NCBI GenBank assembly: GCA_002773545.1 | Contig: PFAV01000049.1 | Span: 1-11,973 of the forward strand | Length of the DNA: 11,973 nucleotides | Source: a bacterium (Candidatus Gribaldobacteria) CG10_big_fil_rev_8_21_14_0_10_41_12 | GTDB lineage: Bacteria; Patescibacteriota; Minisyncoccia; Minisyncoccales; CG1-02-41-26 | Direction of reading: 5' to 3' | Shown here: positions 1,149 through 10,417 of the stretch, piece after piece | Layout of the letters: every line of letters starts with the position of its first letter | Position numbering within the stretch: the first letter of the stretch is position 1 | Position numbers and translations under genes: made by a program | Notes under the pieces: model-generated | The model's input: only the letters and a program-made list of their open reading frames with translations | Databases searched by the model: none | What the model was told of the DNA's origin: nothing

Positions 1149-1859
1149 ATGGTCAAGCAACTCAAAGGAAAATTTATTGTGTTTGAGGGCTTGGACGGCT
1201 CGGGCAAATCAACCCAAACAAAGCTTTTGGCTGAATATCTGGCCAAGCAGGGCAGACCAGCGGTTAAAATTGATTTTCCCCAGCACGGCATGCCCTCGGC
1301 CGGTATGGTGGACGAATATTTGCGGGGCAAATATGGCCAGGCCGACGAGGTTGGTCCGTATAGGGCTTCGGTTTTTTACGCTTGCGACCGCTATGACGCT
1401 AGTTTCAAAATTCGCCAGTGGCTCAACGAAGGTAAAATCGTGGTGGCTGATAGATATTTAGCCAGCAATATTGGCCATCAAGGCGGCAAGATAAAAAATA
1501 AAGCCGAGTGGCGGAAATATGTCAAGTGGCTTTATGATTTAGAGTATGGCATTTTTGGTATTCCTAAGCCCGACATGACCATTATCTTAAAAACCAATCC
1601 AGCCATAACTTTGAAACTGGCTCATAAAATTATTGACCAAGAAAAATTAGCCAAAAGAAAAGCCTATTTGGGCAAGCAAAAAAGAGATATTCATGAAAAA
1701 AACAAACAGCATCTGGCCGACGCTTTGCGATCTTATTTATGGGCTTGCCAAGAGTTTCCCAGGGATTTTAAGGCGATTGATTGTATGGAAGGAGCTTCGC
1801 TCCCTCCTCCATCAGAAATTCATCAAAAAATAGTTTGTCTTATAAAAAAAATTATATGA
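1149..1859 (+). CDS. tmk: Thymidylate kinase (dTMP kinase)
   Basis: It phosphorylates dTMP to dTDP with ATP. The 236-residue protein has the P-loop GLDGSGKST (residues 14-22), the substrate-side DFPQHG (42-47), DRYLASNIGHQGGK (101-114) carrying the DRY motif, and a lid-like basic stretch including KRDIHEKN (178-185). The form resembles the longer, divergent dTMP kinases of CPR and archaea more than E. coli Tmk. An in-frame TTG at 1128 would add seven residues, but ATG 1149 fits the family start (MVKQLKGKFIVFEG) and the candidate promoter would place the transcript start near it. No Shine-Dalgarno. The 3' end contains the small hairpin at 1790-1805 coding part of MEGASLPPP (213-221). The TGA stop overlaps the deoC ATG by four bases (ATGA), suggesting translational coupling. 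Confidence 0.92.
   Translation: MVKQLKGKFIVFEGLDGSGKSTQTKLLAEYLAKQGRPAVKIDFPQHGMPSAGMVDEYLRGKYGQADEVGPYRASVFYACDRYDASFKIRQWLNEGKIVVADRYLASNIGHQGGKIKNKAEWRKYVKWLYDLEYGIFGIPKPDMTIILKTNPAITLKLAHKIIDQEKLAKRKAYLGKQKRDIHEKNKQHLADALRSYLWACQEFPRDFKAIDCMEGASLPPPSEIHQKIVCLIKKII
1786..1812 (+). repeat. Imperfect palindrome inside the 3' end of tmk
   Basis: GGAGC and GCTCC (1791-1795 and 1799-1803) flank a TTC loop, with purine-rich GGAAG to the left and pyrimidine-rich CTCCTCC to the right. The segment GGAAGGAGCTTCGCTCC matches the intergenic terminator hairpin near 7346-7361 at 16 of 17 bases. It encodes residues about 213-221 of Tmk. The protein is not obviously longer than relatives here, so insertion is less certain than for thrS. 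Confidence 0.5.
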
Positions 1860-2536
1860 ATTGCAAACAATTAGCCAAAACAATTGACCATACCAACATT
1901 GACCATAAAGCCACAGCCAAAGACATTAAAAAAACCTGCGCTGAAGCCAAAAAATACGGCTTGCGGGGCGTGGATGTCAATCCTCAATGGGTTGGTTTGG
2001 TCAGCCAGGAATTAGCCGGCAGTGATATTAAAACAGTGGTTTTGATTGACCCGCCCATGGGCTTAAGTTCTCGCTTTCGGCGGCTGGATCTTTGCCGCCA
2101 GGCCAAAAAAGATGGCGCTGACGAGCTGGATGTGGTGATTAATGTGATTGATATTAAATATGAAAGATATGATGAAGTGTTAGCCGACTTGAAAGAAATT
2201 TGCAAGATTTTGCCTACTAAAATAATTATTGGCTCGGGGTATCTCACGGACGAAGAAATAAAAAAGGCCTCGGAAATTGTCAAACAAGCCGGCGCGTTTT
2301 GCGTTAAAACAGCCACGGAAAAAGATCCTTTAGATAGAATAGAACTAAAAGAGAAAGCGCGCCATCTGGGCATTATGAAAAAAGCCGCTCCGGGGTTGCA
2401 AATTAAGGCCTCGGCCAAAATTCAAACCTATAAGGACGCCTTAATGATGATAGAGGCCGGGGCTGACATTATCGGCACCAGCGCGGGCGTGGAAATTGTT
2501 AAGGGCTGTCGAGCCAGCTTGAAACGACGAAAATAA
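1856..2536 (+). CDS. deoC: Deoxyribose-phosphate aldolase
   Basis: DeoC cleaves 2-deoxy-D-ribose-5-phosphate to glyceraldehyde-3-phosphate and acetaldehyde, linking deoxynucleoside breakdown to central carbon metabolism. The 226-residue TIM-barrel protein has the family Asp in ELDVVIN (D92), the Schiff-base Lys in CVKTATE (K151), the second active-site Lys in IKASAKIQT (K184) and the final phosphate loop GTSAG (207-211). The K184 motif is odd: relatives usually read K-(A/S)-x-G-G-(I/V)-R-T, and here the two glycines of the phosphate-binding loop are replaced by Ala-Lys. The ATG at 1856 overlaps the tmk stop and gives the right N terminus; an upstream in-frame start at 1781 would only add 25 residues read from tmk sequence. 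Probably co-transcribed with tmk. Confidence 0.94.
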   Translation: MNCKQLAKTIDHTNIDHKATAKDIKKTCAEAKKYGLRGVDVNPQWVGLVSQELAGSDIKTVVLIDPPMGLSSRFRRLDLCRQAKKDGADELDVVINVIDIKYERYDEVLADLKEICKILPTKIIIGSGYLTDEEIKKASEIVKQAGAFCVKTATEKDPLDRIELKEKARHLGIMKKAAPGLQIKASAKIQTYKDALMMIEAGADIIGTSAGVEIVKGCRASLKRRK

Positions 2537-2548
2537 AAACTAATTTGT

Positions 2549-2613
2549 TGTCATTCTGAGCCAGCAGGCGAAGAATCTCATGCACGAGACCCTTCGCTCC
2601 GCTCAGGGTGACA
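2549..2613. repeat. Dispersed palindromic repeat (TGTCATTCTGAG family) before gatB
   Basis: TGTCATTCTGAG (2549-2560) faces CTCAGGGTGACA (2602-2613), and inside it CGAAGAATCTC (2569-2579) faces GAGACCCTTCG (2586-2596). Each pair has two differences. The sequence matches the well-known bacterial intergenic repeat of the TGTCATTCTGAG...GAAGAATCTC type. It fills almost the whole gap between deoC and gatB and contains a false upstream start (ATG 2580) in the gatB frame. Confidence 0.85.
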
Positions 2614-2633
2614 CTCCGTGTCATTTTTCATTT

Positions 2634-4178
2634 ATGTTGAAACCAACTATCGGCTTGGAAATTCATATAGAGCTTAACACTGAATCAAAGATGTTTTGCG
2701 CTTGCCCCAATGAGTCCTGGCAAACCGAGCCCAATAAAAATATTTGTCCAACTTGCTCTGGCCAGCCGGGTTCTCTGCCAACAATCAATCAAGAAGCCAT
2801 CAAAAAAAATATTAAAACCGCTTTGGCCTTAAACTGTGAGGTGGCTGACAATAGCTTTTTTGAGCGCAAAAATTATTTTTACCCCGACTTACCCAAGGGC
2901 TACCAAATATCACAATACCAAGAACCATTGTCAAAAAATGGATATCTTGATATTCACATTCCTGCTTCTGGTCAGGATAAAAATTTTCAATTTTCAATTT
3001 CCAAGTTTCAAACAAAAAGAATAAGAATAGAAAGAATACATTTAGAAGAGGATACTGGCAGGTTGCAACATCCCGAGGGCGCTGATTATTCTTTAGTTGA
3101 TTTTAACAGAGCTGGCGTGCCGTTAATGGAGCTGGTTACCGAGCCGGATTTGGCAACGGCCGAGGAGGTCAAGGAGTTTGTTAAAGAGCTGAAGCTTATT
3201 TTACAATATCTCAATGTCTCGGGCGCTAATATGGAAAAAGGCGAAATGCGTTGCGAAGTGAACATTTCTTTGGCCGAAAAAAATGCTGAAAAATTTGGCG
3301 CCAAGGTGGAAATAAAAAACTTAAACTCAATAGCGGTAGCTGGCGCGGCCGTTGAGTATGAAATTAAACGGCAAACAGAAATTTTAGCCAGAGGAAATAA
3401 GGTTGTTCAAGAAACCCGCGGCTGGCATGACAAAAAAGCCATTACTTTTTCGCAAAGAGACAAAGAATCAGCTCATGACTATCGTTATTTCCCCGAACCA
3501 GATTTGCCGCCTCTAAAAATCACGCCAGAATTACTTAACGAGATTAAGGCCGCTTTGCCCGAGTTGCCCAGCCAAAAGCGAGCCAGATTTGTCAAAGAGT
3601 ATCGCCTCAACAGTCAAGATATTGAGCTTTTTGTTCACCAAAAGGGCTTGGGTAATTATTTTGAAAAAGTGGTTTCAGAATTAATCAGCTGGGTGGCGGA
3701 AAAATACGAAACTACTCTTCCCCCTGAAGAGTTTCAGAAGTTGATAAAATTAGCATCCAATTATATTGCCACTGATTTGCAGGCCTTATTGAAAGAGAAG
3801 GGGATTGAAGATTTTGACGAAGAAAAATTTAAAATAACGGCAGAAAATTTTGCTGAATTTTTGAGTATGATTTATTTGGGTGAAATATCAAGCAAAATAG
3901 CCAAAATGCTTTTACCGGAAATGTTAAGCAAGGGTGGCGACCCTTCGCAAATTATCATTGACAAGGGTTGGCAAATGGTCTCTAGTAAGGTTGAAATAGA
4001 AAAGGTAGCCCAAGAGGTGATTGCTAACAACCCCAAAGCGGTTGAAGATTATGGTAAAGGCAAAGTTGCTTCTTTGCAGTTTTTAGTGGGTAAGGTGATG
4101 GCCAAGACAAAAGGCAAAGCCAAACCCGAGGTAGTTAGTGAAATTCTAAGAAGGAACTTAGTTACTTCTACTATCTAA
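2634..4178 (+). CDS. gatB: Aspartyl/glutamyl-tRNA(Asn/Gln) amidotransferase subunit B
   Basis: GatB is the kinase/tRNA-binding subunit of GatCAB, which converts Glu-tRNA(Gln) and/or Asp-tRNA(Asn) to the amidated forms; its presence suggests the indirect route for Gln and/or Asn. The 514-residue protein has the N-terminal GLEIHIELNT (7-16), zinc-site cysteines CAC and CPTC (22, 24, 38, 41), YPDLPKGYQISQY (83-95), RIHLEEDTG (134-142) and FNRAGVPLMELVTEP (157-171), then the helical and C-terminal YqeY-like tail ending VVSEILRRN. It is longer than the usual 475-480 residues, partly because of an inserted AT-rich-coded stretch (about 112-127). ATG 2634 is chosen because the ATG at 2580 lies inside the intergenic repeat. 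gatA and gatC are not in the window. Confidence 0.95.
   Translation: MLKPTIGLEIHIELNTESKMFCACPNESWQTEPNKNICPTCSGQPGSLPTINQEAIKKNIKTALALNCEVADNSFFERKNYFYPDLPKGYQISQYQEPLSKNGYLDIHIPASGQDKNFQFSISKFQTKRIRIERIHLEEDTGRLQHPEGADYSLVDFNRAGVPLMELVTEPDLATAEEVKEFVKELKLILQYLNVSGANMEKGEMRCEVNISLAEKNAEKFGAKVEIKNLNSIAVAGAAVEYEIKRQTEILARGNKVVQETRGWHDKKAITFSQRDKESAHDYRYFPEPDLPPLKITPELLNEIKAALPELPSQKRARFVKEYRLNSQDIELFVHQKGLGNYFEKVVSELISWVAEKYETTLPPEEFQKLIKLASNYIATDLQALLKEKGIEDFDEEKFKITAENFAEFLSMIYLGEISSKIAKMLLPEMLSKGGDPSQIIIDKGWQMVSSKVEIEKVAQEVIANNPKAVEDYGKGKVASLQFLVGKVMAKTKGKAKPEVVSEILRRNLVTSTI
2983..3002 (+). repeat. AT-rich tandem repeat inserted in frame in gatB
   Basis: Two units of ATTTTCA are followed by ATTTCC. 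Seventeen bases (2983-2999) are identical on the opposite strand to 10446-10430, in the spacer between dnaE and thrS. In GatB it codes part of the stretch around NFQFSISKFQ (residues 117-126), between the conserved NGYLDI and KRIRIERIHLEED blocks, which normally lie much closer together. Confidence 0.6.
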
Positions 4179-4180
4179 TT

Positions 4181-5107
4181 ATGCAGATTTTTTCAGCTTC
4201 TATAAAATCGTTTTATGAAAAAATGGCTCGCAACGAGATGAGTAGTTTTTCTGTGCCGGCCTTTAATTTAAGAATTTTAACTTTTGATATGGCCAGAGCT
4301 CTTTTCAGAGCCGCTCAAAAAGTTAAGACCAATACTTTTATTATAGAAATAGCTCAATCCGAATTGGGCTATACCAAGCAAACGCCCAAGAGTTTTGCCA
4401 AGCAATGTTTGGCGGCGGCCAAAGCGGAAAATTATCAAGACAAAATTTTTTTACAGGGCGACCATTTCAAACCCAAAAACAATTTACCGAGATTGATTAA
4501 ACGAGCGATTAAAGCCGGTTTTTATAACATTGACATTGATTGCTCGGCTTTGCCGCTAGTCGAAAACATTGCCCAGACGAATTATTTCATTGAACTAATT
4601 AAAAAGCGCCAGCCGCGAGATATGGCTATAAATATTGGCGGGGAAGTAGGCGAGATAGGCAGCTCCAATACCAGCGCCGAGCATTTAAGAGAATTTTTGC
4701 AAAAAGTCAAAGGCATTAACAAGGTGGCGGTGCAAACTGGCACGGCTCACGGCAAGGGCGGGCAAATTGACTGGCAGTTATTAAAAAACCTTTCAGCTAT
4801 CGCCCAAGAGTATGGCTTGGCCGGGGTTGTGCAACATGGCGCTTCAACCTTGAGCGAAGATGATTTGAAAAGATTGCCCCAGCATGGCGTTTGCGAGGTT
4901 CATTTGGCCACCGAGTTGCAGGATGTAATTTTGCAACACCCCTTGTTTCCTTATAAAATAAAAAAACAAGCAATAGGGCGTTTCAAAAATAAAATAAACA
5001 GCATCCCTCAAACCATCAAAGACCAGATTATGGAGGAAGTTGAGGAAAAATTTATTTTCTTTTTTAAGTGTTTGGGCGTTGAGAATATTCACAGTGATTT
5101 GAAATAG
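4181..5107 (+). CDS. Class II (zinc) ketose-bisphosphate aldolase family protein, divergent
   Basis: This 308-residue TIM-barrel protein resembles class II fructose- or tagatose-bisphosphate aldolases. Visible family features: SVPAFN (24-29, like the usual PAFNV), GDHF (93-96) in place of LDHG with catalytic Asp94 and zinc His95, NIDIDCSAL (116-124) in place of SVMIDGS, GGEVGEIG (153-160), the second zinc His in GTAHG (H190) and the third in VQHGAS (H219). The block that in true aldolases reads KxNxxT, where Asn contacts the substrate, is EVHLATEL here (239-246), so substrate specificity or activity may differ. It starts 2 nt after gatB without a Shine-Dalgarno and is almost certainly co-transcribed. 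No terminator is seen after it. Confidence in the superfamily is high, in the substrate low. Confidence 0.8.
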   Translation: MQIFSASIKSFYEKMARNEMSSFSVPAFNLRILTFDMARALFRAAQKVKTNTFIIEIAQSELGYTKQTPKSFAKQCLAAAKAENYQDKIFLQGDHFKPKNNLPRLIKRAIKAGFYNIDIDCSALPLVENIAQTNYFIELIKKRQPRDMAINIGGEVGEIGSSNTSAEHLREFLQKVKGINKVAVQTGTAHGKGGQIDWQLLKNLSAIAQEYGLAGVVQHGASTLSEDDLKRLPQHGVCEVHLATELQDVILQHPLFPYKIKKQAIGRFKNKINSIPQTIKDQIMEEVEEKFIFFFKCLGVENIHSDLK

Positions 5108-5121
5108 CGATGCGCGCTCTA

Positions 5122-5149
5122 TTGACATCGGGTTTTGAGCGGGTATGAT
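5122..5149 (+). promoter_or_regulatory. Strong sigma70-type promoter for the small membrane-peptide gene
   Basis: A perfect -35 box TTGACA (5122-5127) and a -10 box TATGAT (5144-5149, one mismatch) are separated by 16 bp. Transcription should start near 5156, giving a leader of about 58 nt. It is the only near-consensus two-box promoter I found in the window and begins 15 nt after the aldolase stop codon. Confidence 0.75.
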
Positions 5150-5191
5150 GGGGCTGGCTATTTAGAAATTTTTATCCCTAAAAACAAAAAA

Positions 5192-5209
5192 ATCACCAAA
5201 GGAGGTGAT
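5192..5209 (+). promoter_or_regulatory. Strong Shine-Dalgarno in a small hairpin
   Basis: AAAGGAGGTGAT (5198-5209) matches the complement of the 16S rRNA 3' end over its length, with GGAGG at 5201-5205 spaced 8 nt from ATG 5214. ATCACC (5192-5197) can pair with GGTGAT (5204-5209), leaving AAAGGA in the loop. No other gene start in the window has a recognisable Shine-Dalgarno, so this site decides the start and marks the gene as unusual. Confidence 0.8.
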
Positions 5210-5213
5210 GAAA

Positions 5214-5402
5214 ATGAAATGGTTGATAGGGATTTTTTGTTTTTTATTTGTTCTGGGCGTTGTAATTTTTCGTCCAGAGCAATCCGTGGCTGCCATCGCT
5301 TTAGTGGTGTGCGGCCCGGGGGTTTTTGTCGTTTTCGAGATTTTTTTTCGTAAACGACAGGAACCAAGAGCAAGCAGATTACTGCTTGCTCTATTTTTTT
5401 AG
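5214..5402 (+). CDS. Small hypothetical two-helix membrane peptide, possible nonstop mRNA
   Basis: I do not recognise this 62-residue protein. It has two hydrophobic segments (residues about 3-19 and 25-45) and a basic RKR cluster at 46-48, so a small inner-membrane hairpin peptide is likely. It has its own promoter (5122-5149), a consensus Shine-Dalgarno 8 nt before ATG 5214 (an earlier ATG at 5208 and GTG at 5205 are too close to the SD), and its own intrinsic terminator. The terminator stem codes residues 52-60 and its T-run codes Phe61-Phe62 and reaches the TAG stop, so transcripts may end before a complete stop codon. A 12-bp stem-loop region at 5327-5359 inside the gene (TGTCGTTT with AAACGACA) leaves room for an alternative: a structured RNA of about 245 nt. 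It overlaps miaA tail to tail by 12 bp. Confidence 0.6.
   Translation: MKWLIGIFCFLFVLGVVIFRPEQSVAAIALVVCGPGVFVVFEIFFRKRQEPRASRLLLALFF
5367..5400 (+). terminator. Intrinsic terminator inside the 3' end of the small membrane-peptide gene
   Basis: AGAGCAAGCAG (5367-5377) and CTGCTTGCTCT (5382-5392) form a perfect 11-bp stem with an ATTA loop, followed by A and seven T (5394-5400). Release is expected at about 5399-5401, while the stop codon of the gene it terminates is at 5400-5402. On the - strand no U-tract follows, so it works for + transcripts only. Confidence 0.9.
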
Positions 5403-6275
5403 AAAATTTTTCAGCAGAGTTGCGGCTTGCCGCGAATTTTTTACCCAGCGGATTTTTTTATCTTTCTTGAACCATGTCATTTGCCTCTTGGCAAACTGTA
5501 AAGTATGAATTTTTATTCCGAAAGGAGGCTCCCTCCTTCCTTGGAGGAAGGAGGGAGCCTCCTGCCACTCGGCGTAGCCGATGGTATTTTTTAGGATAGG
5601 CGTCCAGCCATATTTTTTAACCAGTGTTTCAACTTCATTCTCAAGGCCTTGTTTGAGCATCTTGTTGGTTCTTTCTTCTATCCGTTTTTTCAAGTCCTTT
5701 TGGTTAATTTTAGCGCCCAAAATCAAGCAATCAAACTGCGGTTTTTTTATTATGGCAGGCACTTGGCCAAATTGTTTGGCCATTTCAATTGCCCGAATGA
5801 GCCGTCTTTTATTATTTTTGTCAATATTTTTCGCTCTGGTTTTATCCAGCTTTTTTAAGATTTCAAAAAGCTGGATAGGGGATTTATCTTCAAGCTTTTT
5901 TCGCAAGGCCGAATTAGCTTTTGATTTAGGAAACTGCCAGCCCTCAACCACCGAGTAAATATAAAAGGCCGTGCCGCCCACCAAAAAAGGAATTTTACCT
6001 CGCTTTTGAATATCCTTGATGGTTTTAATGGCTAATTTTTGGTACTGCGCCACATTAAACGATTGGTTTGGCCTAACAATATCAAACAAATGCTGTATTC
6101 CAATATTGGAAGGTCTGCCCTTCCAATTTGGTTTGGCGGTGCCGATGGTCATTTCAGCATAAATCTGGCGCGAGTCAGCGCAAACAATCTCGCCATTGAA
6201 TCTGTGAGCTAATTTTATAGCCAAGTCGGTTTTTCCGCTGGCAGTGGGGCCAAGAATAACTATAAGTTTATTCAT
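5391..6275 (-). CDS. miaA: tRNA dimethylallyltransferase
   Basis: MiaA transfers a dimethylallyl group from DMAPP to N6 of A37 in tRNAs reading UNN codons. The 294-residue protein has the P-loop GPTASGKT (9-16), ADSRQIY (33-39) with the catalytic Asp34 and Ser35, IGTAKP (44-49), a GGTAFYI substrate-channel motif near 100, RLIRAIE, and the C-terminal KRQMTWFKKD. Length is near normal (about 300). Between IGYAEW and the AKRQ block, residues about 238-251 are coded by an 18-bp perfect palindrome and are low-complexity (APSFLQGRREPPFG). The start overlaps the end of miaB by 8 bp, so the two modification enzymes are translated from one message. It ends convergently with the small membrane-peptide gene, whose terminator T-run codes its last two lysines. 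Confidence 0.96.
   Translation of the reverse strand: MNKLIVILGPTASGKTDLAIKLAHRFNGEIVCADSRQIYAEMTIGTAKPNWKGRPSNIGIQHLFDIVRPNQSFNVAQYQKLAIKTIKDIQKRGKIPFLVGGTAFYIYSVVEGWQFPKSKANSALRKKLEDKSPIQLFEILKKLDKTRAKNIDKNNKRRLIRAIEMAKQFGQVPAIIKKPQFDCLILGAKINQKDLKKRIEERTNKMLKQGLENEVETLVKKYGWTPILKNTIGYAEWQEAPSFLQGRREPPFGIKIHTLQFAKRQMTWFKKDKKIRWVKNSRQAATLLKNFLKK
5523..5563. repeat. 18-bp perfect palindrome inside miaA
   Basis: AGGAGGCTCCCTCCTTCC (5523-5540) and its exact reverse complement (5546-5563) flank the loop TTGGA. It is the longest perfect short-loop stem in the window and lies entirely in coding sequence, in frame and without stop codons. The purine/pyrimidine-rich composition is close to the hairpins at 1786-1812 and 7338-7372. 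Confidence 0.9.
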
Positions 6276-7296
6276 TTTTTATTAAACCAAGTAAAATTTG
6301 TTCCCGTTTTTGTTTTTCTATCAGTGGCACAGTGTCTTTTAGGCGAAAGGCGGCGGTACCAGAGCGGGGGGAGTATTTGGCAATAAAGGCCTGTTTGAAA
6401 TTAACTTTTTTCATCACTTCAACAGTTCTTTGAAATTGTTTTTCGGTTTCGCCGGGAAAGCCCACAATGATGTCCGTGGTTATGACAACCGCGGGCATGG
6501 CTTTTTTTATTTTAGCGATAAGTTTTAGATAATCTTGTCTAGTATACTTACGATTCATTTTTTTTAAGATGGCGTTGTCGCCAGTTTGAAAGGGCAAATG
6601 GACATATTTGATTATTTTAGGGTTTTTGGCCATTTCAGCGATGAGTTTGTCGGAAAAATCCTTGGGGTGGTTGGTTAAAAACTTCACCTTAAAATCGCCA
6701 TTTAGGGCGGTTATTTTTTGCAAAAGCCCAACAAAGTTCGGATAGCTGTTTACATTTTGAGCTATTAAGGTTATTTCTTTCACACCTTTTTTAATAAGCC
6801 CAGCGGCTTCTTTCGCAATGGCTGTTTGGCTGCGGTATTTTTCACGGCCCCGAGTATAAGGCACTACGCAATAGCTACAAAAGTTATTGCATCCTTTGCC
6901 AATAGTTATTAGACCGGTTAGTGGCCCGCCCGCATCGCTACGCGAACCAGTTCGCTGCGAAGCGTTGCGGGCGAGTGGAAATTTTTCAATATCTCGAAAT
7001 TTTCTAATTTCCACATCTAATTTTTCAAACATTTTTTTATCTGAATCAAGTACACAACCCGTAGCGATAATTTTTAATTTTGGATTGTGGTTTTTCATTT
7101 TTAGTTTTAAGTTTTTAATTTTATTTACTACTTTATCCACTGATTTTTGCCGCACAGAACAAACTAAAACTATAACTAAATCAGCTCCATCAGGGGTGGG
7201 GGACTGCGAGTAGCCCTTTTTAAGCAAAAGCTGGCTTATTTTTTCCGCGTCAGCTTTATTAAACTGACAACCAAATACTAAAATATGGTATTTCAT
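6268..7296 (-). CDS. miaB: MiaB-family tRNA methylthiotransferase, short form without TRAM
   Basis: MiaB is a radical-SAM enzyme with two iron-sulfur clusters that adds a methylthio group to i6A37 of tRNA, the step after MiaA. The 342-residue protein has the N-terminal UPF0004 cluster cysteines C10 (FGCQFNKAD), C46 (LVCSVRQKS) and C81 (TGCVL), and the radical-SAM motif CNNFCSYC (C136, C140, C143) followed by VVPYTRGRE. HLPFQTGDN and the TDIIVGFPGET block are typical of the family. It ends about 100 residues earlier than E. coli MiaB, so the C-terminal TRAM RNA-binding domain is missing. Two stretches (about 61-76 and 108-124) are coded by repeat-like DNA. The neighbouring miaA favours MiaB over MtaB. 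No Shine-Dalgarno; the ATG at 7296 matches the family start. Confidence 0.9.
   Translation of the reverse strand: MKYHILVFGCQFNKADAEKISQLLLKKGYSQSPTPDGADLVIVLVCSVRQKSVDKVVNKIKNLKLKMKNHNPKLKIIATGCVLDSDKKMFEKLDVEIRKFRDIEKFPLARNASQRTGSRSDAGGPLTGLITIGKGCNNFCSYCVVPYTRGREKYRSQTAIAKEAAGLIKKGVKEITLIAQNVNSYPNFVGLLQKITALNGDFKVKFLTNHPKDFSDKLIAEMAKNPKIIKYVHLPFQTGDNAILKKMNRKYTRQDYLKLIAKIKKAMPAVVITTDIIVGFPGETEKQFQRTVEVMKKVNFKQAFIAKYSPRSGTAAFRLKDTVPLIEKQKREQILLGLIKNE
6927..6973. repeat. GC-rich imperfect palindrome inside miaB
   Basis: CGCCCGCA (6927-6934) pairs with TGCGGGCG (6966-6973). After one mismatch CGCT (6936-6939) pairs with AGCG (6961-6964), and inside this GCGAAC faces GTTCGC with a 3-base offset. 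It codes residues 108-124 of MiaB, a low-complexity stretch rich in Ala, Arg, Ser and Gly between the N-terminal domain and the radical-SAM domain. It is much more GC-rich than its surroundings. Confidence 0.8.
7069..7116 (-). repeat. AT-rich low-complexity coding segment in miaB
   Basis: The - strand reads as repeated AAAnTTAAAA/AAAATG-type units and codes residues about 61-76, an Asn/Lys/Leu-rich run (KNLKLKMKNHNPKLKI). It resembles the AT-rich intergenic repeats common in CPR genomes. It lies between the second and third cluster cysteines in a loop of variable length. Confidence 0.4.
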
Positions 7297-7313
7297 AACT
7301 TACTTTTGACGCC

Positions 7314-7322
7314 ATTAAAGCA
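7314..7322 (-). promoter_or_regulatory. Candidate extended -10 promoter for miaB-miaA
   Basis: On the - strand TGCTTTAAT matches the extended -10 form TGnTATAAT with one mismatch. It lies between the terminator at 7338-7372 and the miaB start, giving a leader of about 10 nt. No clear -35 box. The layout (terminator, extended -10, very short leader) is the same as at tmk. Confidence 0.35.
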
Positions 7323-7337
7323 TATTTTAAGCCAAAC

Positions 7338-7372
7338 AAAAAGAGGAAGGAGGTTCGCTCCTTCCTCTTTTT
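7338..7372 (-). terminator. Rho-independent terminator after the DUF5667-like gene
   Basis: A perfect 15-bp stem (7338-7352 with 7358-7372) encloses the loop GTTCG and has A/T runs at its ends, so it could work in both directions. On the - strand it ends in five U, 12 nt past the stop codon of the DUF5667-like gene, and separates that gene from miaB. Confidence 0.85.
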
Positions 7373-7384
7373 TGAAATGTTGGA

Positions 7385-8362
7385 TTATTGATTTATGGGA
7401 GAGGTGGCTGTGGTAGTGGCGTTTTGTTGCCGCAAATTTTCTTTAATAATGTCCATCTTTTGCTTTAAGGTTGAGTTCGTAGGCAAGCTATTTTTTATTT
7501 CGTTGAGCATTTCTTGTTTTTTCTCAATGGTTGTCTTTGCTTTGTCCAGATAATTTTCTATTTTTTGTTGGGCTGCCGCGGGCATAGCTTGCAGTTTGTC
7601 GTTCAGGTTTTGCAAGGCCTTTGTTTTCGCTTGTTCCAACTGCTGAATGGTTGAGGTGGGGAATTTATCTTCTAATTTTTTTAAGATTTCCAACTTGATG
7701 ATTGGTTTGAGGTCGCTTTCTTTCAAATTTTCCAGACCCTTTTCCACCCTGGCTTTAATTTTATCTTTGTCTTCCAGCTTTTGCATTACTTGGCCGAATT
7801 GCTCTAATTGCCTTTCCCTAACCTGCTGGATTTTTTCTAAGGCGCTGGCGGGCACCTGGCTGGCCAGTTTATCCAGGATTTGTTCTTGCAGAATTTGTTG
7901 CTTGGTGAATTTATCCAGAAACTTGCTCACCGCAACGCTGGTGGTGGCTGTTTCCTTAAACTTGGCGATATTTTTCTGCACGGCCTCTATTTTGTTCTGA
8001 TAGAGCTCGGTGGCTTTGTTTAGAATTTTAGGATTGTTAGTTTTTTCTGCTAACTTTCTTGCTTCTAAAAGTTTTTCTGACGCTATCTTTAAGTTCAGCT
8101 CGGCTTTTTTAACTTGGCCGAAAGTGAAAACCGACTGAATCGCATTTTTCCAATTTTTCAAGAAATAAAATTTACTGTAAGGCAAAAGGGTTGGCTCTGA
8201 AATATCTAATTCTTGCGCTGTTATGGCTTCGTCTTGAACTGTTGCTTGAACGGCCGGCTGGTCAACAGCGACAACAGTGTCTGTGGCTTCTTGGGCTAGA
8301 GCTATGCCCGTTGCGCCAAAAACTAAAAGAACTGAACACAATAAAATTATTTTTTTGAACAT
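7385..8362 (-). CDS. Exported DUF5667-like coiled-coil protein
   Basis: The 325-residue product begins with a clear signal peptide (residues 1-23: Lys-Lys, a hydrophobic core, cleavage after ALA). A spacer rich in Ala, Val and Thr follows, then a motif typical of DUF5667 (PYSKFYFLKNWKNAIQSVFT, 61-80, followed by FGQVKKAELNLKIASEKLLEAR at 81-102 when read on). The rest is Lys/Glu/Gln/Leu-rich helix, probably coiled coil, with no transmembrane segment after the signal, ending in a Thr/Ala-rich tail. Function is unknown; a cell-envelope or surface role is inferred from export. The gene stands alone: terminator downstream, large palindrome upstream. Its ATG is preceded by the same 14-mer as rplK and no Shine-Dalgarno. 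Confidence 0.8.
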   Translation of the reverse strand: MFKKIILLCSVLLVFGATGIALAQEATDTVVAVDQPAVQATVQDEAITAQELDISEPTLLPYSKFYFLKNWKNAIQSVFTFGQVKKAELNLKIASEKLLEARKLAEKTNNPKILNKATELYQNKIEAVQKNIAKFKETATTSVAVSKFLDKFTKQQILQEQILDKLASQVPASALEKIQQVRERQLEQFGQVMQKLEDKDKIKARVEKGLENLKESDLKPIIKLEILKKLEDKFPTSTIQQLEQAKTKALQNLNDKLQAMPAAAQQKIENYLDKAKTTIEKKQEMLNEIKNSLPTNSTLKQKMDIIKENLRQQNATTTATSPINQ

Positions 8363-8363
8363 G

Positions 8364-8377
8364 TTAGAAATCGTTAA
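8364..8377 (-). repeat. Second copy of leader motif TTAACGATTTCTAA
   Basis: On the - strand this is identical over 14 bases to 78-91 and, as there, ends one base before an ATG. Confidence 0.6.
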
Positions 8378-8402
8378 TGAATGAGTGGCGATTAGCCACG
8401 AG

Positions 8403-8565
8403 TGAATTTATGAGTTCTTACACCCTGTGAAGTAATTTTAAAATCCTGAGGGCAGACCTCCTGAAAACTGGGCTCCCAGCATGGGGAGGTCTGCCCTCGG
8501 GATTTTAAAATTGAAATTTGCTTTGCAAATTTCTACTTCACGGGGTAAGTCCTCCGTAAATTTCA
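8403..8565. repeat. Large nested palindromic element between thrS and the DUF5667-like gene
   Basis: A 28-bp inner stem (8434-8461 with 8485-8512, one G-T pair) carries the AGACCTCC...GGAGGTCT core also seen at 1-70. Beside it a perfect 9-bp stem (8513-8521 with 8525-8533, loop TTT) forms a second arm. Both are enclosed by a 12-bp outer stem (8422-8433 with 8535-8546, one G-T pair). Weaker pairing continues outward (8405-8411 with 8556-8562). The folded form is a three-way junction about 160 bp long. The 240-bp gap between thrS and the DUF5667-like gene holds little else; no confident promoter or terminator was found there. Confidence 0.85.
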
Positions 8566-8602
8566 AGCTTCGCCTTACGGCTCGCTTTCAATAACGGATT
8601 AC

Positions 8603-10417
8603 TTATTTTTTGTTTATTATTTCTTCTTTTATTGTAGCAATAAATTTGTCAATTGTCATGGCTCCTTTATCCCCAGCGCCTCTTTGGCGCACCGCCACGG
8701 ATTTGGCAGAAATTTCTTTATCGCCAACCACTAAAATATAAGGGATTTTTTGCATCTCGGCCTCGCGAATCTTTTTACCAATGGTTTCGTTATCTAAATT
8801 CAATATCGCCCGGATATTATTTTGCTTTAATAAATCCAAGACCTCTTGGCCATATTTTTGGTGGTCTTGGCCAATAGGTAAAACAATGGCTTGGATAGGG
8901 GACAGCCAGACAGGAAAAGCGCCAGCATAATGCTCAATCAAAACGCCAATAAACCTTTCAAAGGAACCAAATAGGGCTCGATGTAAAACATAGGGCCGTT
9001 CTCTTTCTCCCTTTTGGTTAGTAAAGCTCATGTCAAATCTTTCTGGTAGGTTAAAATCAAACTGCAAGGTTGAACATTGCCATTCCCTACTCAAACAATC
9101 TTTTATTTTATAATCCAGCTTTGGCCCATAAAAAGCGGCTTCGCCTTCTTGTTTTTTATAATCTAACTTTTGTTCTTTGGCTACTTCTTCTAAAATTTTT
9201 TGGGTAAATTCCCAGCCCTCGTCATTGCCAGCGTATTTTTCTTTGTTGTTGGGGTCTCTTAATGATAAATAAACATTAAACTCCTTAAAACCAAAAGTGT
9301 TGAGAATAAAAATAATAAAATCAGCTACTCGCTTTAGCTCGTCTTTGACTTGTTCTTTGGTGCAAATAATATGGGCGTCGTCTTGGGTAAAACCACGCAC
9401 TCGCGTTAAGCCAGAAAGCTCGCCTGATTTTTCATAGCGGTAAACAGTGCCACACTCGGCCCACCTGATTGGTAAATCGCGGTAGCTTTTTGGCTTTGAG
9501 TTATAAAGCACAACATGAAAAGGACAATTCATTGGCTTTAATAAATATTCTTCTTTGATTTCAGATTTTTTACCATCTTGTTGTTCTTTCAAGGTTTGGC
9601 TTACTTCCAATGGGGGATACATACTTTCGTTGTAAAATCCCCAATGGCCAGAAGTTTCCCAAAGTTTTCGGCTGCCAATGTGTGGGGTTCTTACTAGCTC
9701 ATACCCGTTCTTCAAATGCTCTTGATACCAAAAGTCCTCCATAATCCGCCACAACATTGCGCCTTTTGGTTGCCACATAGCCAAGCCCATACCAACAGTG
9801 GGGTCAATTAAAAATAAATCTAACTCTTTGCCAAGCTTGCGGTGGTCGCGTTTTTCCGCCTCCTCCATCATCTGTAAATAATCTATTAATTCTTTTTCGC
9901 TTTCAAAAGCTAAGCCGTAAACGCGGGTAAGCATTGGCCGTTTCTCGTCGCCTCGCCAATAAGCGCCCGCTATCTTAGTCAGCTTGAAGGCCTTGGTATT
10001 GATTTCGCTGGTGTTTTCAATGTGCGGCCCAGCGCATAAGTCCACAAAATCGCCGGATTGGTAAAGCGTTAGACGCCCGATGTCGGGAGCCCTTAGACAT
10101 CGGGTGTCGGTAAACTCTTTGATTAGCTCTAATTTATAGGGCTCGTTGGCGAAAAGTTTTTCGGCCTCGCCTTGGGAAATTTCTTTTTTTATAAAATCAA
10201 TATTTTGTTTGATAATGGCTTGCATTTCTTTTTCAATTTTGGCCAAGTCCTCGGGCGTGATTCTGGCGTCAGAAAAGTCGTAGTCATAGTAAAAACCATT
10301 TTCAATGGCCGGCCCAATGCCAAGCTTAACATCTGGATATAATTTTTTAACCGCCGCGGCCATAATATGGCTCAATGAGTGCCGAGCAGTTTCTATTGGA
10401 GCGTTTTTATTTGACAT
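8603..10417 (-). CDS. thrS: Threonine--tRNA ligase without TGS domain
   Basis: ThrRS charges tRNA(Thr) and edits mis-attached Ser. The 604-residue protein starts directly at the editing domain, with RHSLSHIM (H13, H17) and DLCAGPH (C128, H132) as the editing-site residues; the N-terminal TGS domain of E. coli ThrRS is absent. The class II catalytic core shows motif 2 around TVYRYEKSGELSGLTRVRGF, zinc ligands in PMNCPFH, the DDAHI block and YVLHRALFGSFERF (motif 3), and the anticodon-binding domain starts near WLSPIQAIVLPIG. Residues 104-116 are coded by a palindrome and seem to be an insertion. The ATG at 10417 lacks a Shine-Dalgarno. It lies 44 nt after dnaE and is probably read with it. Confidence 0.97.
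   Translation of the reverse strand: MSNKNAPIETARHSLSHIMAAAVKKLYPDVKLGIGPAIENGFYYDYDFSDARITPEDLAKIEKEMQAIIKQNIDFIKKEISQGEAEKLFANEPYKLELIKEFTDTRCLRAPDIGRLTLYQSGDFVDLCAGPHIENTSEINTKAFKLTKIAGAYWRGDEKRPMLTRVYGLAFESEKELIDYLQMMEEAEKRDHRKLGKELDLFLIDPTVGMGLAMWQPKGAMLWRIMEDFWYQEHLKNGYELVRTPHIGSRKLWETSGHWGFYNESMYPPLEVSQTLKEQQDGKKSEIKEEYLLKPMNCPFHVVLYNSKPKSYRDLPIRWAECGTVYRYEKSGELSGLTRVRGFTQDDAHIICTKEQVKDELKRVADFIIFILNTFGFKEFNVYLSLRDPNNKEKYAGNDEGWEFTQKILEEVAKEQKLDYKKQEGEAAFYGPKLDYKIKDCLSREWQCSTLQFDFNLPERFDMSFTNQKGERERPYVLHRALFGSFERFIGVLIEHYAGAFPVWLSPIQAIVLPIGQDHQKYGQEVLDLLKQNNIRAILNLDNETIGKKIREAEMQKIPYILVVGDKEISAKSVAVRQRGAGDKGAMTIDKFIATIKEEIINKK
10072..10108. repeat. 13-bp palindrome inside thrS
   Basis: GACGCCCGATGTC (10072-10084) pairs with GACATCGGGTGTC (10096-10108) with one G-T pair, loop of 11 bases. 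It codes ThrRS residues 104-116 (DTRCLRAPDIGRL), between the LELIKEF segment and the conserved YQSGDFVDLCAGPH block. In relatives this linker is, as I recall, roughly seven to nine residues shorter. Confidence 0.8.

Follow-up and report, generated by a model that had tools for sequence, protein, structure and literature searches.

Palindromes that code for protein are known chiefly from Rickettsia and from some bacteria rich in repetitive extragenic palindromes (REPs). Here we describe palindromes that lie in frame within housekeeping genes of a member of the Patescibacteria, or candidate phyla radiation (CPR). They were met in contig PFAV01000049.1 of Candidatus Gribaldobacteria bacterium CG10_big_fil_rev_8_21_14_0_10_41_12, the whole of which (11,973 nucleotides) is called the window below.

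Two kinds of palindrome inside genes have been described, which we cite, like the other sources below, from excerpts. Rickettsia palindromic elements (RPEs) are translated in frame within conserved proteins (PMC2229807, PMC3733652, PMC10969869). Intragenic REPs of the GTAG or CGTC type are short palindromes, often dimers, also in frame and in many cases located in repair genes such as uvrA, uvrB and the DNA ligase gene (PMC3733652). In subclass 2.4 of the REP-associated tyrosine transposases (RAYTs, or TnpA_REP), REPs are found inside the transposase gene itself (PMC6006769). HUH enzymes, both those of the IS200 type and those associated with REPs, work on single-stranded DNA next to hairpins, and a role in spreading REPs has been proposed for TnpA_REP (PMC6006769, PMC8266576).

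The palindromes of the window are very probably RAYT-mobilised, non-autonomous elements of several families, akin to REPs and to REP doublets forming hairpins (REPINs), and kept where reading frame and protein fold survive.

In-frame palindromes in four housekeeping genes

A preliminary description of the window, made from its sequence, had reported palindromes in miaA, miaB, thrS and tmk. All four are located as it stated, in frame and without stops:

1786-1812, plus strand: family A palindrome in tmk (1149-1859), residues 213-222, near the C-terminus; family A copy at 1787-1807
5523-5563, minus strand: family A doublet in miaA (5391-6275), residues 238-251; perfect 19-nt arms and a 3-nt loop; family A sites at 5520 and 5546
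6927-6973, minus strand: family C palindrome in miaB (6268-7296), residues 108-124; imperfect, score 11
10072-10108, minus strand: palindrome in thrS (8603-10417), residues 104-116, just before tRNA_SAD; imperfect, score 10

The same description took the encoded residues to be of low complexity, a claim that we abandon: the peptides (for example GRSEAPS, RKELRSF, EGASLLP) depend on the frame in which the palindromes are read and are not low-complexity runs in general. The miaA palindrome is free of stops in all six frames, as is family A. In miaB, the insert falls between the UPF0004 (residues 2-94) and Radical_SAM (130-293) matches, and the tmk palindrome is C-terminal to the Thymidylate_kin match (residues 12-171). 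Since the tmk copy at 1787-1807 fits the family A pattern, with one mismatch in 21 positions, we count it as a member of that family. Its stem has mismatches, and the palindrome at 1786-1812 was missed by our mismatch-tolerant scan. Our simple gene caller joined the last part of tmk to the gene that follows (open reading frame (ORF) 1781-2536), and tmk is thus absent from its gene list.

Palindrome scores come from the mismatch-tolerant hairpin scan. In 193 kb of codon-shuffled genes (mean of two shuffles), hairpins scoring at least 10 occur about 2.5 times, and those scoring at least 11 occur 0.0 times. A second scan, for perfect stems (stem of at least 12, loop of 3-30, arm GC of at least 40%), covered the window and contigs C1-C20, 196.8 kb altogether, and returned 28 hairpins, a few of them nested, against a mean of 0.0 over two Markov shuffles.

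Repeat families across the genome

The genome bin to which the window belongs, as contig C61, has 713,950 bases in 75 contigs and is 84.6% complete (C, G and L numbers are our handles for contigs, genomes and loci). The family A pattern, GGAAGGAGSTTCGCTCCTTCC, has 28 sites in this genome at up to three mismatches, compared to one for a control pattern. Merged by hand, these sites form 17 elements, 11 of which are doublets; 12 elements lie in frame within 11 genes and the remaining five are extragenic. The host genes are ligA, uvrB, thiI, tmk, miaA and those encoding a thioredoxin-reductase-type pyridine-nucleotide oxidoreductase, enolase, an ATP-grasp protein, a RAYT-like protein, a Mur ligase (two elements) and a Memo-AMMECR1 protein. 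In our comparison set of 60 related genomes, which includes the own genome and two others of the same genus (G001 and G002), family A is present in 10, all from the own family.

For family B, the core is matched exactly at 57 places in the genome (control 0), and the copies examined in our sample are mostly intergenic. Family C, to which the miaB palindrome belongs, has seven exact matches corresponding to three elements (control 0); across the 60 genomes, its pattern has matches in nine and the control pattern in four. One family C element, at L009 (7869-7920), corresponds to residues 18-35 of an ORF, although a later start codon would exclude it from the protein. Elements measure 23-60 nt. 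Other genomic copies, which the preliminary description proposed to search for, thus exist for the miaA and tmk palindromes through family A and for that of miaB through family C.

Separate from these families, we observed palindromes whose centre is always GCGATCGC and whose long arms are specific to each site yet pair almost perfectly (L019:3955-4000, L020:4320-4361, L047 at about 1260-1271, L014:4553-4594). The miaA gene of G010 holds a similar GCGATCGC-centred palindrome in frame.

RAYT-like transposase genes and their own palindromes

Two genes of the own genome match PF01797 (Y1_Tnp) above the Pfam cut-off. The RAYT-like gene on contig C20 carries family A palindromes on its flanks and in frame inside, and that on contig C12 carries family B in the same two positions. 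Over the 60 genomes, the own one counted, there are 84 PF01797 matches in 31 genomes. After exclusion of four short IS200-like loci (L189, L190, L191, L193) and three pieces in G009, 77 RAYT-like ORFs were examined. An in-frame internal palindrome scoring at least 9 occurs in 35 of them (31 at score 10), for a total of 39 palindromes. Cognate palindromes flank the own loci L001 and L002 and many of the 77 ORFs, while some ORFs have no flanking palindrome.

Nine of the 39 internal palindromes belong to genes with no palindrome within 400 nt, which leaves 30 that can be tested. For 27 of these, the flank of the own gene is a better match than every flank from another genome; the three others are L002 residues 85-100, L210 and L264. 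By position, 25 of the 39 internal palindromes are in one loop before the NHxH motif and four at one place after the Tyr region. The N, H, H and Tyr columns are invariant across 24 aligned RAYTs. A single-sequence search returned no solved-structure relatives of the RAYT, and a profile search against solved structures gave weak transposase matches (E 0.0069-0.36), which we take to be IS200/IS605-type transposases.

Two further ideas about these genes were considered and rejected. We make no claim that flanking palindromes are adapted to genes by avoiding stops: 14 of 75 are open in every frame, where shuffled arms would give 13.05, with a mean of 1.95 frames containing a stop against 2.31 in shuffled arms (standard deviation 0.15). 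Neither does a single ancient internal palindrome account for the loop copies, whose distribution requires 15 gains or losses on a tree of 72 rows, a number that may be too high owing to decayed copies counted as absences. The presence of a loop copy is nevertheless clustered on this tree, with 15 changes against a shuffled mean of 20.8 (3 of 500 shuffles were as low). We also observed 15 PF01797 matches in the 0.8 Mb genome G031, many with their own distinct palindromes.

Empty sites and shared loops in relatives

Alignment to close relatives, the other check proposed in the preliminary description, gave empty sites in two genes. The MiaB proteins of G001 and G002 both lack the insert, and comparison with G002 delimits a clean 51-nt insertion; several partial miaB rows are uninformative at this site. 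UvrB has 17 extra columns, and the insert is absent in 15 of 16 aligned relatives, the sixteenth (L179) being gapped there; the best match in the Protein Data Bank, 2fdc, has a 19-residue gap at the same place. As a separate observation, uvrB of the same-genus genome G001 (L167, contig C6) contains an in-frame intein near residues 41-43, with matches to Intein_splicing and LAGLIDADG_3.

At several sites, related genomes hold other palindromes in the same loop. In ligA of G002, a family A element stands at this very position and differs in both bases of the pair that closes the loop, a version equal to two other copies in G002, and the same ligA loop of G018 and G016 contains other palindromes. 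Differing palindromes are found in the thrS loop of the window, G001 and G022 (those of G001 and G022 being strong), in the miaB linker of the window, G022, G018 and G012, and in the miaA loop of the window and G018. A uvrC palindrome lies in frame at L011:15885-15927 (AAGGAACCGAGTTCCTTCG...), and palindromes of the same type occur in miaA, ligA and uvrB of G018. The preliminary description had suggested an ongoing genome-wide process. Many genes are concerned across the genome; 'ongoing' would rest on differences between species.

We surveyed miaA, miaB, thrS, tmk, ligA and uvrB in the relatives (130 ORFs, 193 kb), the six genes being chosen for their palindromes in the own genome and the relatives without regard to palindromes. 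The survey revealed 19 in-frame palindromes scoring at least 11, versus 0.0 after codon shuffling (two shuffles). Seventeen are in genomes with a PF01797 match and two in genomes without (p 4.6e-5 by length). Within the own family, palindromes occur in 8 of 11 genomes with a PF01797 match versus 1 of 10 without (p 0.006), or p 0.024 when G009, which has IS200-like pieces only, is moved to the second group.

Alternative explanations

A number of observations weigh against mobilisation by RAYTs. All 17 survey palindromes from genomes with a PF01797 match are within the window's own family of genomes, and this relatedness inflates the test. Only 4 of 21 intragenic palindromes scoring at least 10 (one in G031, one in G011 and two in G018, the latter two narrowly) are best matched by a RAYT locus of their own genome. 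The 17 others may belong to RAYTs that were lost, unassembled or unrecognised, and the same three fates are candidates for the mobiliser of G008, a genome that carries families A and B yet has no PF01797 match. We found no RAYT for family C. NCBIfam REP_Tyr_transpos is the best match for five of five proteins, yet at 22.5-49.4 bits against a curated cut-off of 80, and GT[AG]G stands at the foot of 9 of 98 flanking hairpins, which is about the chance level (11% by a hand estimate). Among the window genes, the miaA palindrome sits in a length-variable loop and produces no clean insertion in the alignment to relatives, and tmk shows no clear gain in length relative to eight relatives. At up to one mismatch, the genome holds no further copy of the thrS palindrome. 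Taken alone, this palindrome could be a product of chance, as a score of 10 is reached in codon-shuffled genes.

Could the hairpins be selected RNA or DNA signals, such as terminators, mRNA stabilisers or translation pauses, whose mobility is incidental? Some copies do stand at gene ends with T runs (7338-7372), and the ligA element of G002 retains its pairing through a two-sided change. However, the insertions affect unrelated genes, are absent from orthologues and place unrelated sequences at the same loop in different species, and we consider this explanation quite improbable. Palindromes might instead form in place, by template switching or quasi-palindrome correction, and never move. The locus-specific, perfectly complementary arms of family B and of the GCGATCGC-centred palindromes are what one would expect from such a process, as is the single copy in thrS, and local formation may explain isolated cases such as the latter. 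As a general account it is very improbable: unrelated loci share the 21 nt of family A in identical or almost identical form, and the 51-nt insertion of miaB consists of repeated sequence.

The elements would hardly be true members of an RPE family moved by an unknown agent. The outcome is the same, with in-frame palindromes in conserved genes including uvrB (PMC3733652, excerpt), but families A and B each have a linked RAYT-like gene and the elements, at 23-60 nt, are shorter than the RPEs in the excerpt of PMC2229807 (105-146 bp), although RPE-4 and RPE-6 are smaller than these. We give least credence of all to an artefact of assembly or binning. In its favour are the state of the bin (75 contigs, 84.6% completeness) and the unusual density of elements on contig C17; against it, relatives that are separate genomes show these families and loops as well, and the reading frames of the own genome are intact.

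Proposed mechanism and significance

If the elements are mobilised by RAYTs, then by analogy with known enzymes a RAYT-like Y1 (HUH) transposase would recognise a hairpin in single-stranded DNA, then cut and rejoin beside it. Each RAYT-like gene would tend to be flanked by its cognate palindrome and would often hold it in frame inside as well. Copies would land in other genes too, where those keeping the frame within a loop or a domain linker would be tolerated, adding some 8-20 residues to the translated protein, and the others purged. Such a filter on insertions would be the reason why the permissive loops of MiaB, ThrS, LigA and MiaA hold unrelated palindromes across species. We infer that the elements have moved, that the RAYT-like enzyme is the catalyst, that the encoded peptides are tolerated and that activity continues.

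More tentatively, competing RAYT lineages of Patescibacteria may continually re-tool protein loops, each gene tagging itself in frame, with the tag repeatedly gained and lost, and seeding housekeeping proteins. We see this as possible rather than probable; were it true, hairpin peptides would be a notable source of novelty in loops of otherwise shrinking genomes. In any event, the case is of interest because coding palindromes are dense here in a CPR genome of very small size and are linked to identifiable transposase genes with locus-specific palindromes. It offers a natural series for studying the tolerability of insertions, the joint change of transposase and hairpin, and selfish DNA as a source of usable protein loops. 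CPR gene models can include peptides derived from mobile elements, with consequences for alignment and annotation.

Other features of the window

Pfam matches identify the window genes as those for thymidylate kinase (tmk), gatB, a class-II aldolase-type gene, miaA, miaB, thrS and a fragment of DNA polymerase III alpha. The preliminary description had similar palindromes filling the intergenic gaps, and families A and B are indeed found there:

1-70, no strand assigned: family B doublet with a GGTCAGACC-type core, intergenic, at the contig end
2550-2625, no strand assigned: element starting GTCATTCTGAGC, intergenic; relatives of its ends at other places in the genome sample (13 matches with no more than one mismatch, 0 within called genes)
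7338-7372, no strand assigned: family A palindrome, intergenic between miaB and a DUF5667 gene; exact match at 7345-7365; 15-bp perfect stem, then a T run
8434-8512, no strand assigned: family B doublet with long complementary arms, intergenic; near-identical copy at L013:3189-3269

Given its T run, the palindrome at 7338-7372 could act as a terminator. At 5214-5402 we noted a 62-residue ORF with a hydrophobic N-terminal half, preceded by a strong ribosome-binding-like GGAGGTGAT; a hairpin at 5367-5392 and a T run follow this ORF.

Comparison with known systems

The preliminary description saw in the window the pattern of RPEs and knew of no such description for CPR bacteria. On the latter point, our searches of open-licence PMC papers found none for Patescibacteria, a weak indication that none exists. 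The pattern itself holds as regards the way of working: as in the excerpts on RPEs, palindromes invade conserved protein genes in frame. The elements have a linked transposase here and measure 23-60 nt, against 105-146 bp for the RPEs described in PMC2229807. Each copy of the RAYT-type Y1 transposase has its own palindrome, and therefore the nearest kin by evidence is the REP/REPIN system.

With REPs or REPINs and their RAYT (the REPtron), our elements share many-copy doublet palindromes, a palindrome-flanked transposase gene and a Y1_Tnp domain with HUH motif and catalytic Tyr. REPs are mainly extragenic, whereas 12 of 17 family A elements are intragenic. The intragenic REPs excerpted from PMC3733652 are likewise short in-frame palindromes, often doublets, in repair genes (here ligA, uvrB and uvrC), but occur in other hosts and are tagged GTAG or CGTC, while GT[AG]G is unenriched at the feet of our hairpins. 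As in TnpA_REP subclass 2.4 (PMC6006769, excerpt), cognate palindromes flank the transposase gene and sit in frame inside it; here, 25 of 39 do so in the loop before the NHxH motif. The kind of element is thus already known from other bacteria, both as in-frame intragenic REPs outside Rickettsia (PMC3733652) and as RAYT self-insertions (PMC6006769), as far as these excerpts go. What is distinct here is the lack of GT[AG]G enrichment at the hairpin foot, the host lineage, the position before the HuH motif and a family A that is mostly intragenic.

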